A DNA stretch of 64,000 nucleotides, taken from positions 1 through 64,000 of the forward strand of contig NZ_ARQI01000121.1 in NCBI RefSeq assembly GCF_000384655.1. The letters run 5' to 3'. Position 1 is the first letter of the stretch, and each line of letters starts with the position of its first letter. Shown piece by piece: positions 1,695 to 61,319 of the stretch. The notes below the pieces were generated by a model. That model did not search any database. It was not told where the DNA came from and was given only the letters and a program-made list of their open reading frames with translations. The position numbers and the translations under genes were made by a program. Source of the DNA: Brachyspira innocens ATCC 29796. GTDB lineage: Bacteria > Spirochaetota > Brachyspiria > Brachyspirales > Brachyspiraceae.

Positions 1695-1849
1695 AAGCAA
1701 TTTAAGAAAAACAAAACACAACTGGTGTAAATGAACTTAAGTTAAGTTCTATGACCCAACGGTTACAATTTGTAACATTTCTTTAAGTAAGTAAATCACT
1801 ATTCAGTAGAATAGTAAAATAAAGAATCATTTCAGATTCACAAAAGTGA

Positions 1850-3363
<1,514 letters not shown>

Positions 3364-44808: not shown

Positions 44809-44814
44809 ATGACG

Positions 44815-45672
44815 ATGATCATCAATAACAACATTAGTGCTATAAATGCACAACGTACTTTAAAATTCAGAAACGTAGATCTTTCTAAAGACATGGCTGC
44901 TCTTTCTTCTGGAATGAGAATCAACAGAGCTGGTGATGATGCTTCTGGACTTGCTGTATCTGAAAAAATGCGTACTCAAATCCGCGGTTTACGTCAGGCT
45001 GAAAGAAACACTCAAGACGGTATATCTTTCATCCAAACTACTGAAGGTTACCTTCAAGAAAGCCAAGACATTTTACAAAGAATACGTGAATTGTCTGTAC
45101 AATCTGCTAACGGTATTTATACTGATGCTGACAGAATGCTTATTCAAGTTGAAGTTTCTCAATTAGTTGATGAAGTTAACCGTATTGCTAGCCAAGCTCA
45201 ATTCAATACTCTTAACATGTTAACTGGAAGATTTGCTAACCCTAACGAAGGCGGAGCTCCTGTTGCTTCTATGTGGTTTCATATGGGGGCAAACATGGAC
45301 GAAAGAAGAAGAGTTTATATAGGAACTATGACTGCTGCTGCTTTAGGTTTACAAACTGCTGAAGGTACTGGTATATCTATTTCTTCTATCGACAAAGCTA
45401 ACAGTGCTATAGGTATAGTTGATGAGGCTTTAATGAAAGTTTCTAAACAAAGATCTAATTTAGGTGCTTATCAAAACAGATTAGAGCTTACTGCTCAAGG
45501 CTTAATGATAGCTTATGAAAACACTGCAGCTTCTGAAAGCAGAATAAGAGATACTGATATGGCTGAAACTTCTGTTAAATTCGCTAAAGACCAAATATTA
45601 AGTCAGGCTAATTTAGCTATGTTGGCTCAAGCTAATACTATGAACCAAGGTGCTTTACGTTTGATTCAATAA
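44815..45672 (+). CDS. flaB: Flagellar core filament protein (flagellin) FlaB
   Basis: About 285 residues from [18 protein letters not shown]. Start at 44815 rather than 44809, because GGAGG (44804-44808) then has a 6-base spacer. N-terminal D0/D1 coiled coil includes [21 protein letters not shown]-terminal D1/D0 has the matching helices ending [16 protein letters not shown]. The variable D2/D3 domain is almost absent (short [17 protein letters not shown] middle), as in periplasmic spirochaete flagellins, which are built of FlaB cores with an FlaA sheath. C-ending codons are more frequent than in the neighbours, fitting high expression. Which FlaB paralogue this is cannot be fixed here. Confidence 0.95.
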
Positions 45673-45704: not shown

Positions 45705-45750
45705 AAAAATAGCTGGTCTCATTAATTTTAATGGGACTGGCTATTTTTTT
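45705..45750 (+). terminator. Terminator after flaB
   Basis: AAAAATAGCTGGTCTCATTA (45705-45724) and its near-perfect inverse at 45729-45750, about 18 pairs with a four-base loop, ending in T7. An unusually long, strong terminator, in line with a highly transcribed gene. Confidence 0.9.
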
Positions 45751-45763
45751 ATAATCTAATTAC

Positions 45764-46088
45764 AACCCCTCCCTTTAAAATCAGATGTTTTAATTTTTTA
45801 TTATAGCTTTATTAATATTTAAAGCTATAACTATTAAAAGTACGCCCGCCCAAGCGTTTTATAAATTTATTGTTTCCCTTCCCCGCACGTTTAATTAAAT
45901 TTTGAATATTAATAAAATTTGTATTTTTTATTTTATTTATATTTTATTAATTTTTTTCTACGTGCGGGTAGAATAGACTATAATATTTCAATAAAGCTAG
46001 GGTGGGTGCCTTAAATAACAGATGAAACTACAAAATATAGTGAGTATTAAAATTGCAGTATGAATTATAAATTTTAAAGGGCGGGGGT
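45764..46088. repeat. Family C element: three concentric inverted repeats
   Basis: Outer pair ACCCCTCCCTTTAAAAT (45764-) and ATTTTAAAGGGCGGGGGT (46071-46088); middle pair ACGCCCGCCCAAGCGTTTT (45842-) and AAAGCTAGGGTGGGTGCCTT (45993-46012); inner pair CCCCGCACGTTTAA (45881-) and TACGTGCGGGTAGA (45959-45972). The arms are GC-rich islands in AT-rich filler. It lies between the convergent flaB and the DUF285 genes. No coding content. Confidence 0.8.
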
Positions 46089-46106
46089 AAAATAAAATCT
46101 TATTTT

Positions 46107-47948
46107 TTAATTTTCTATATACCAAGAAGGTTCATGTTTTTCTACAAGTGAATCTGAAAAAGCATATTTCATATTAATCTCATTTGACAATTTCCAAGAC
46201 TCTAAATCCTGATTAAAATTTGAGCAGTTATAAAATGCAAACGATATATTTTTAATATTAGATAGATTCCATTTATCTAAAGGCTGATTAAAGTTTGAAG
46301 CACTATGAAACATTCCATTTATAGATTCAATATTACTCATATCCCAATCATTTAAAGGCTGATTAAAACTCTTAGCATCTTTAAACATAGCATCGGCATA
46401 TTTTACTTTGCTTACATTCCATTTAGAAATATCCTGATTAAAAGAATACGCACTTTTAAACATAAAGCTCATTATTTCTACATTAGATGTATTCCATCTG
46501 CTTAAATCACCATCAAAACTAACACAATCTGAAAACATAAAACTCATATACTTGACATTAGAAACGTCCCAATTATTAAGAGGCTGATTGAATCTAGTAC
46601 ACCCTGAAAACATATATTCCATATTAATAACATTAGATACATTCCAATTCTCTATATTATGATTAAAATATATAGCTCCTTTAAATATGTTATGCATATC
46701 TTTTACGTTTGAAGTGTCCCAAGTTTCAATACCGTCAAATTTTTTAAGTTTTGAGTTCTGAAACAATCCAGACATGTCAGTTATTAAGCTAGTATCTATT
46801 TTATTAAATTTTATTTTTTCTTTTATTAATTTTAATAATTCTATTTTATCTTTAGGTTTATATTTTTCATTTTCTTTTAATTTGATATTATTAGCCTTTA
46901 ATTTTTTATATTCTTTTATAATATCTTCTTTATTATCAATGAGTTCCTTTAATTCATCATAATAAGTATTTTCAAGTTTTTTAATAAAATCTTTAAGTTT
47001 ATTATATTTTAGAACTTCTTTATACACTTCTTTTATATCGCAGTTTTCAAGCATTAATAAAAGTTTTTTTCTATCACTTCCTTTGGAAAGAAAATAAATA
47101 TTTAATATAGACTTCACATTTTTAAAAGAAGAAGCACCCGAAAAAAACTCCCTAATAAAACAAGCTTCATTAATAATCCAATTTTCTATAGAATGATTAA
47201 AACTCTCAGCACCACTAAACATATATGACATACTAATTGCATTAAAAACATTCCAGTTTCCAATATCCTGATTAAAACTTTTAGCATTAAAAAACATATA
47301 GTTCATATATAAAACATTAGAAGTATCCCATTTATCAAGCGGCTGATTAAAGTTATAAGCATTCTCAAACATACCAAGCATTTTTTCTGTTTTGCTGACA
47401 TTCCAATTATTAAGAGCCTGATTAAAATTATAAGCCTTTGAAAACATACTTTGCATATTTTCTACATTAGAGGTATCCCAATTATTTAAATCCTGATTGA
47501 AATTTACAGCTTTATAAAACATACATCTCATACTGATAACTTTAGAAGTATCCCATTTATCTAAAGGCTGATTAAAATTTTTGGCTTCAGAAAACATAAA
47601 TTCCATATTTGTTACATTAGATACATTCCAATCATTTAATGGCTGATTAAAGTTTTTAGCACTTGCAAATATCCCGAACATATTAGTAACTTTTGAAACA
47701 TTCCAATTATTTATATTTGAATTAAAGTTTACAGCCCCCATAAACATATCTGACATATCTGTAACATTAGATGTATTCCAAATTTCAATTCCATCAAAAT
47801 TTTCTCTCTTACTATTTTCAAATAATCTGCTCATATCAGTAATTAAACTTGTATCAATACTTCCAAGATTAATGCTTTCATCCTTAACTAATTTTTTTAA
47901 TTCTTCTTTATTTTTTGGTTTAAATCGTTTTTCCATTTTCTTATCCAT
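46107..47948 (-). CDS. DUF285 repeat protein, two solenoid modules
   Basis: 613 residues, about 17 repeats of roughly 25 residues of the type FNQPLDNWNVSNVKDMSSMF (DUF285, bacterial surface 26-residue repeat). Two modules, each opened by a cap (KPKNKEELKKLVKDESINLG then DTSLITDMS; second cap near residue 365) and the protein closing with PSWYIEN. A charged helical linker (about 275-365, ending in ELKELIDNKEDIIKEYKKL) joins them. No signal peptide or lipobox is seen, although the family is usually called surface-exposed. The ribosome site is weak; the upstream bases belong to a direct repeat at 47948-48048. Confidence 0.88.
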   Translation of the reverse strand: MDKKMEKRFKPKNKEELKKLVKDESINLGSIDTSLITDMSRLFENSKRENFDGIEIWNTSNVTDMSDMFMGAVNFNSNINNWNVSKVTNMFGIFASAKNFNQPLNDWNVSNVTNMEFMFSEAKNFNQPLDKWDTSKVISMRCMFYKAVNFNQDLNNWDTSNVENMQSMFSKAYNFNQALNNWNVSKTEKMLGMFENAYNFNQPLDKWDTSNVLYMNYMFFNAKSFNQDIGNWNVFNAISMSYMFSGAESFNHSIENWIINEACFIREFFSGASSFKNVKSILNIYFLSKGSDRKKLLLMLENCDIKEVYKEVLKYNKLKDFIKKLENTYYDELKELIDNKEDIIKEYKKLKANNIKLKENEKYKPKDKIELLKLIKEKIKFNKIDTSLITDMSGLFQNSKLKKFDGIETWDTSNVKDMHNIFKGAIYFNHNIENWNVSNVINMEYMFSGCTRFNQPLNNWDVSNVKYMSFMFSDCVSFDGDLSRWNTSNVEIMSFMFKSAYSFNQDISKWNVSKVKYADAMFKDAKSFNQPLNDWDMSNIESINGMFHSASNFNQPLDKWNLSNIKNISFAFYNCSNFNQDLESWKLSNEINMKYAFSDSLVEKHEPSWYIEN

Positions 47949-58303: not shown

Positions 58304-58332
58304 AAATAATATATTTACTTAAACTTTATTTT

Positions 58333-58470
58333 TATTCCCGCCCTTTAAGATTTGTAAACCTATTTTTATTAATAAACTTCATCTACATTTAAAAGTTACA
58401 TTTATAATTTTTAACACTCACCAATTTTTTTTAAATTTATTATTCTATTACCGCACGTAGAATTAAACTA
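58333..58470. repeat. Family C remnant, left half
   Basis: CCCGCCCTTTAAGATTTGTA (58337-) equals the outer arm of the family C copy at 60928, and the next 80 bases are also shared (CTACATTTAAAAGTTACATT near 58382). ACCGCACGTAGAATTAAA near 58451 corresponds to the inner arm, but the right-hand arms are missing. The remaining bases up to 58690 are AT-rich without recognised features. Confidence 0.65.
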
Positions 58471-58758
58471 AAAATATATATTTATTTATAATTCAAATTT
58501 TATCATTCTTTAAATTTCATTTACTGTGTGTTAAATCTAATCAAAGCCTAATATATATTATAATTAATCTTTCAGCTAAATATAAAATACAATTCATAAA
58601 TAACAACAAAAAAGTAACTATATATTGAATAATCAAACTATTAAAATATATTTTTATACTTTTTTTGTACACAACTATATTTTTATAGTAAATAAACATT
58701 GACAAAAAATAAAGCTCATAGTACTTTTTTTACAAAATATTATTTAAGAGGTTATAAA

Positions 58759-60912: not shown

Positions 60913-60927
60913 AATTTTATTCTAATT

Positions 60928-61250
60928 CCCCGCCCTTTAAGATTTGTAAGCCTTATTTTTATTAATAATCTTCATTTACATTTAAAAGTTACATTTATAT
61001 TTTTAACGCCCGCCCAAGTGTTGATTAACTTTTGAAACTTACTCAACGCACGTTAAACGTATTACTAAAAAACAACTAAATTATAACTACAAAATGTATT
61101 GATTTTTTTAGCTTCATTCTGCGTGCGTAAATGGGACTGTAAATTTAAATAACACTTTGGGTGGGTGCTAATAGATGTTAACTAAACATTAAAAAAAGAA
61201 AAAGCAGCAATTTAGAATGAAGTAAAAAAAGATAGAGGGTGGGGGTTATA
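60928..61250. repeat. Family C element: concentric inverted repeats, second copy
   Basis: Outer arms CCCCGCCCTTTAAGATTTGT (60929-) and GATAGAGGGTGGGGGTTATA (61231-61250); middle arms CGCCCGCCCAAGTGTTGATT (61006-) and CACTTTGGGTGGGTGCTA (61152-); inner arms CAACGCACGTTAAACG (61043-) and CTGCGTGCGTAAATGG (61118-). The layout and spacing equal those of 45764-46088, with changed bases in both arms. It lies between the barrel-like gene and the second small membrane protein. Confidence 0.8.
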
Positions 61251-61319
61251 GTAAAATTCCTTGAAATAAAAATTATTTAAATTTATAATAAATGAAGGAT
61301 TATTAAAAAGGTAGGTATT

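Follow-up and report, generated by a model that had tools for sequence, protein, structure and literature searches.

Some ninety base pairs downstream of a flagellin gene in Brachyspira innocens lies an intergenic element in which three GC-rich arms are followed by the same three arms in inverted order. The initial annotation of this DNA proposed that the nested symmetry is itself under selection, and the question raised by the locus is whether pairing of the arms, or some other property, is what has been preserved. Here, we describe the element within the window (the whole stretch of 64,000 nucleotides that was analysed), its relatives in other Brachyspira genomes, and its placement on the chromosome.

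The element and its copies in the window

The window contains two full copies in which outer, middle and inner arms stand in nested inverted order, as established by inspection of the sequence and its inverted repeats. Both lie where the initial annotation had placed them, and both are recognized by R1, a sequence-only model built on 27 copies from the same 3.28-Mb draft genome (G000), copies 1 and 2 included. Copy 1 also matches R1 on the other strand (E = 1e-30). A third copy had been described as a half copy at 58333-58470; it is real, but it is a decayed longer copy rather than a half only, since the R1 match extends over 58332-58616. It has an outer arm (58337-58343) and an inner arm (58451-58458), and its middle arm and right inner arm (~58525) are degenerate. 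The features are as follows, with the basis for each in parentheses.

44809..45672, + strand: flagellin gene, upstream of copy 1 (Pfam Flagellin_N and Flagellin_C)
45705-45748: terminator-like hairpin of the flagellin gene, ahead of copy 1 (inverted repeat I3)
45766..46085, no strand: copy 1, full palindromic element and main subject of this study (R1 match 45763-46098, E = 4e-47, training copy)
45767..45773, + strand: copy 1 outer left arm O, CCCTCCC followed by TTTAAA (sequence, inverted repeat)
45843..45851, + strand: copy 1 middle left arm M, CGCCCGCCC followed by AAGCG (sequence)
45883..45890, + strand: copy 1 inner left arm I, CCGCACGT (sequence)
45960..45967, - strand: copy 1 inner right arm I', ACGTGCGG (sequence)
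46000..46006, - strand: copy 1 middle right arm M', GGGTGGG (sequence)
46079..46085, - strand: copy 1 outer right arm O', GGGCGGG preceded by TTTAAA (sequence, inverted repeat)
46107..47948, - strand: DUF285 repeat protein gene, convergent with the flagellin gene across copy 1
58332..58616, no strand: copy 3, decayed (R1 match, E = 1e-14; sequence)
60928..61243, no strand: copy 2, full palindromic element (R1 match 60925-61257, E = 2e-46, training copy)
61007..61015, + strand: copy 2 middle left arm, CGCCCGCCC (sequence)
61047..61052, + strand: copy 2 inner left arm, CGCACG (sequence)
61122..61127, - strand: copy 2 inner right arm, CGTGCG (sequence)
61159..61165, - strand: copy 2 middle right arm, GGGTGGG (sequence)

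One 16S rRNA gene (window 1849-3363) shares the contig with these elements.

Pairing and sequence constraint in the arms

Pairing was assessed in 182 distinct, oriented copies from at least six genomes by means of orientation-controlled shuffles and half-versus-half alignments. Left halves matched the reverse complement of their own right halves, read inward, at 0.462 against an expected 0.478, and whole-half alignment scores were 19.2 within copies and 21.6 between copies. The statement that arms differ between copies while pairing is kept within each copy therefore fails, as a left arm in these 182 copies matches the right arm of its own copy no better than that of another. An excess of compensatory changes within copies was not seen, the covariation term of RNAalifold was only -0.13, and the extensions that follow CGCACG differ between the two halves, being GT in one and CA in the other. 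Since the arms do not co-vary in further copies, the proposal that the symmetry itself is selected is refuted; what stands is the organised, conserved element of three arm pairs.

These results bear directly on the possibility that the element is a structured RNA, either a riboregulator or a bidirectional terminator, that acts through its nested stems. The RNA of one copy folds strongly (z = -7.8), G-U pairing between left and right arms is frequent, and the elements are located downstream of genes. The strong fold is not evidence of selection, however, because any sequence with matching GC arms would fold, and copy 2, folded as DNA, gives an unremarkable score (z = -1.9). Furthermore, copies 1 and 2 are already preceded by terminator-like hairpins of their own, as found in an inverted-repeat search, and within the window the only Rfam matches above the gathering cut-off were to 16S rRNA, with none for the element. 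A structured RNA would also leave unexplained the clustering around the replication origin described below. We regard this explanation as very unlikely, and the oriented shuffles and half-versus-half alignments rule out an RNA or single-stranded DNA hairpin maintained by selection for pairing.

Constraint is evident instead in the arm sequences and in their spacing. When element places in G000 and its close relative G009 were anchored by flanking DNA and compared, the arms differed at 4.8% of positions, the flanks at 6.9% and the spacers at 18.2% (p = 6e-26), a spacer value to which comparison of paralogous array units may have contributed. Among 135 pseudo-motifs drawn from these alignments, only 1.5% were as conserved as the arms (mean divergence, 17.1%), and spacer columns containing G or C diverged by 53% between the two genomes. 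M and I are 37-39 bp apart in 92% of scored halves, O and M are mostly 76-81 bp apart, and the core measures 78-84 bp in all copies despite otherwise very variable spacers. Judged from these alignments, selection is on the sequence of the arms and not on their pairing. The arms are repeated motifs in inverted order, an arrangement that fits putative DNA-binding sites rather than a hairpin, and conservation of sequence and spacing without co-variation gives the element the appearance of an ordered set of DNA-protein sites.

A repeat family confined to Brachyspira

The canonical unit consists of O (CCCRCCCTTT), ~78 bp, M (CRCCCRCCCAAG), 38 bp, I (AACGCACG), a core of ~80 bp, and then I', M' and O'; the conserved arm sequences are CCCRCCC, CCCRCCCAAG and CGCACG. 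Units are ~330 bp long, intergenic, and often arranged in head-to-tail arrays with a period of ~349 bp. A different type of array, with shorter tandem cores at a spacing of ~235 bp rather than 349 bp, is present in one genome (G010:C1 2494037-2495625). Searching genomes for the arms at their spacing, a check suggested in the initial annotation, bore out the element: 24 of the 26 Brachyspira genomes contain 2-144 copies each of the core pattern CGCACG-N65..95-CGTGCG, while the reversed control pattern has no match in any of the 26, which argues that the element did not arise by chance. The core pattern is missing from G001 and G003 and nearly absent from G019. With a copy number that ranges from 0 to 144, and with two to three species almost devoid of it, the element cannot be essential to the genus. 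G000 carries ~89 full and partial copies, and many of its contigs (C36, C57, C75, C76, C79, C84, C88, C95, C106 and C119) terminate within element arrays, indicating that the arrays break short-read assemblies.

In a wider scan of one genome per species, a longer pattern matched 25 stretches, among which the full model supported only those from Brachyspira (B. hampsonii, Brachyspira sp. G79 and three uncultured Brachyspira genomes). Matches to the pattern outside the genus failed the full model, and an origin in another genus was rejected. A phage or plasmid origin was likewise rejected, as a search of plasmids, phages and viral contigs found no element. The family is thus real, specific to these gut spirochetes, and apparently undescribed; the literature searched, which included few subscription journals, yielded no published description of it, in agreement with the earlier remark that no named equivalent is known.

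Cores are intergenic in 180 of 182 cases, and their neighbouring genes are convergent in 54 cases and divergent in 16, compared with a background of 209:208; this excess indicates that the elements avoid promoter regions. The same intergenic places are occupied in G000 and G009 with differing numbers of units; at L070:3173-3743, for example, G000 has one unit more. Comparison of the flanks in these two genomes showed 349-bp units being gained and lost at fixed loci, and no clean empty site was seen. At four arrays (L061:1547-2305, L067:4322-4830, L069:1325-2150 and L072:1164-1699) the left and right flanks match separate places in G009. The repeats therefore coincide with rearrangement breakpoints, and these arrays are likely to be such breakpoints. 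Published work describes symmetric inversions in Brachyspira (PMC3163572, PMC3532143).

The breakpoints, the known inversions and the turnover of units at fixed loci are what would be expected if the elements were recombination leftovers or amplified fragments that act mainly as substrates for inversions around the origin, without any further role. This explanation accounts neither for purifying selection on short arms nor for the fixed spacing of the half-sites, and homologous recombination alone would not create a cluster at the origin; we consider it improbable.

The main rival to reading the arms as sites for a host chromosome protein is a non-coding selfish palindromic repeat, MITE-like or of some other kind. 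It would have been spread by an enzyme whose recognition sites are the arms, and it would insert, or be retained, preferentially in 3' intergenic gaps close to the origin. A copy number that is high in some lineages and zero in others keeps this alternative alive; dispersal over 3' and intergenic places, terminal inverted repeats that are imperfect, and the presence of both tandem units and partial copies also accord with it. Against it, copies in G000 and G009 keep their places while their arms resist change, and a limited check revealed no parent element sharing these ends. The Y1 transposase (PF01797; RAYT/TnpA-REP) was found in none of the 26 genomes, whereas control genomes did match. This result rules out REPIN- or IS200-like mobility, and it also answers a concern of the initial annotation, that the elements might be debris of a known insertion sequence, as far as the IS200/IS605 type is concerned. 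We judge a selfish repeat to be possible but doubtful, in part because of the chromosomal distribution presented next.

Placement around the origin and a putative role

In G009 the element cluster lies opposite dnaA. Across the genomes measured, the distance from dnaA to the cluster centre, and likewise to the parS-like sites, ranges from 0.53 to 0.98 of the half-chromosome. The suggestion that the family marks the terminus did not survive a comparison with GC skew, gene strand bias, parS and published work. The sign of both GC skew and gene strand bias switches at the element cluster, and parS-like sites form one locus per genome, at the skew switch, with 0 control matches. Published skew analysis had also placed the Brachyspira origin away from dnaA (PMC3163572, PMC3532143). 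The single parS locus thus marks the origin indicated by GC skew in Brachyspira, a long way from dnaA. Where sequence was read, this locus lies upstream of an rsmI-like gene, with ParB encoded elsewhere. The parS loci are as follows.

G009:C1 1592520-1593241
G004:C1 1676260-1677173
G007:C1 3037832-3038050
G010:C1 1883088-1883214
G015:C8 2254053

Five assemblies show copies clustered at the origin as defined by parS and the GC-skew switch. Kolmogorov-Smirnov (KS) p values for the distance of element clusters from parS were 2e-10 in G009, 2e-8 in G004, 7e-6 in G007 and 2e-10 on the main contig of G015; clustering in G010 is weak (KS p = 0.03; Rayleigh 0.065). In G009 all 33 of 33 clusters fall within the origin-proximal half. 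Non-coding DNA is only 1.0-1.6x denser near the origin (a non-coding fraction of 0.177 vs 0.111 in G009), a difference too small to account for the clustering. By simple arithmetic, a ~2-fold dosage gradient would place ~58% of copies in the origin-proximal half, rather than the 33/33 observed, which argues further against a selfish repeat. In G004 and G007 an element core with its middle arm lies between the two parS sites; the interval was also read in G001, G009 and G010 and contains no element core. The parS contig of G000 (C88) has element arrays near both of its ends. Directional, KOPS-like sites were considered and rejected, since a tally of best strands in G007 showed no strand polarity, the orientations being balanced on both chromosome arms (12/12 and 8/8).

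Several known site families resemble the element in part. The Noc (NBS) and SlmA (SBS) sites likewise number in the tens and are palindromes scattered along the chromosome but absent from its terminus, with ~70 Noc sites (PMC4331003). A terminus-poor distribution of this kind is seen for the Brachyspira element, most strongly in G009 and weakly in G010, and intergenic sites for a DNA-binding protein would fit it as well. In contrast, each NBS or SBS is one short palindrome, and these sites cover most of the chromosome, whereas the Brachyspira sites are ~330 bp long, six-part, often tandem, and found mainly around the origin. Each Brachyspira genome encodes exactly one PF02195 protein and no Noc-like ParB paralogue, so that a Noc-type paralogue is ruled out as the binder and the element is not a member of the Noc family. 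It shares with parS itself a palindromic form and clustering near the origin, but its sequence is unrelated to TGTTTCACGTGAAACA; canonical parS is separate, with one locus per genome, and the parS consensus was not found within elements, the parS sites lying outside them.

In E. coli, families of sites define chromosome domains: 23 matS sites, bound by MatP, span 800 kb of Ter, and the Ori macrodomain has a single 17-bp maoS site for MaoP (PMC5023128). The Brachyspira element would be alike in this putative role. Unlike maoS, it is present as tens of long sites around the origin, and Brachyspira stands outside the Enterobacteria, with no homologous protein known.

REP/BIME/REPIN and ERIC sequences are palindromes that occur between genes in high copy number, with a bias to the 3' side; their arms are conserved while their spacers vary, and REPINs persist vertically. 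The Brachyspira element shares the REPIN-type combination of a high-copy intergenic palindrome, conserved arms and a variable spacer. It differs in that its units are ~10x longer, with three arm pairs and 349-bp tandem arrays, and, compared with REPINs, in being clustered at the origin in genomes without a RAYT/Y1 transposase.

Taken together, we favour, with a probability of roughly 0.45, the interpretation that the family comprises dispersed cis-acting DNA sites for a putative protein that marks or organises the origin domain. Each site would present six GC-rich half-sites (O-M-I ... I'-M'-O') at fixed spacing within AT-rich intergenic DNA, mostly downstream of genes, and a sequence-specific protein may bind these half-sites as a large symmetric complex. 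Such a multi-part operator would be dyad symmetric and without direction, its copies being most abundant across the origin region and becoming sparse or disappearing toward the terminus. With complexes distributed over several hundred kilobases, the origin domain would be marked or organised. The complexes might achieve this by bridging or condensing the domain, by aiding segregation together with the single ParB-parS locus, or by signalling to division. The elements are probably docking sites for this putative chromosome-organising protein, and they could themselves be used as bait for it.

The element is thus of more interest for its chromosomal place than for its symmetry. To our knowledge, no multi-copy site family that defines an origin macrodomain has been described. 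Should a chromosome-organising protein bind these sites, the origin domain of Brachyspira would be an example of one marked by numerous dispersed palindromes. The full description, a multi-site DNA system specifying the origin domain through tens of long six-part palindromes, in some species with one between the parS sites, bound by a putative protein at an origin far from dnaA, is put forward only tentatively. Even if the family is selfish, its origin clustering and its presence at breakpoints would explain draft assemblies that end in arrays, and may help to explain the known inversions around the origin.

Finally, tying the Brachyspira origin to the parS locus shows where oriC should be sought, dnaA having misled earlier annotation. 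The spacing between paired parS sites varies from 99 to 966 bp across species (pairs in 13 genomes), as though the interval had received no element unit, part of one, a single one or two. The spacings of 498-966 bp in G008, G014, G021, G022 and G024 predict that one or two full units lie inside; sequence was read for the pairs of G004, G007 and G010.
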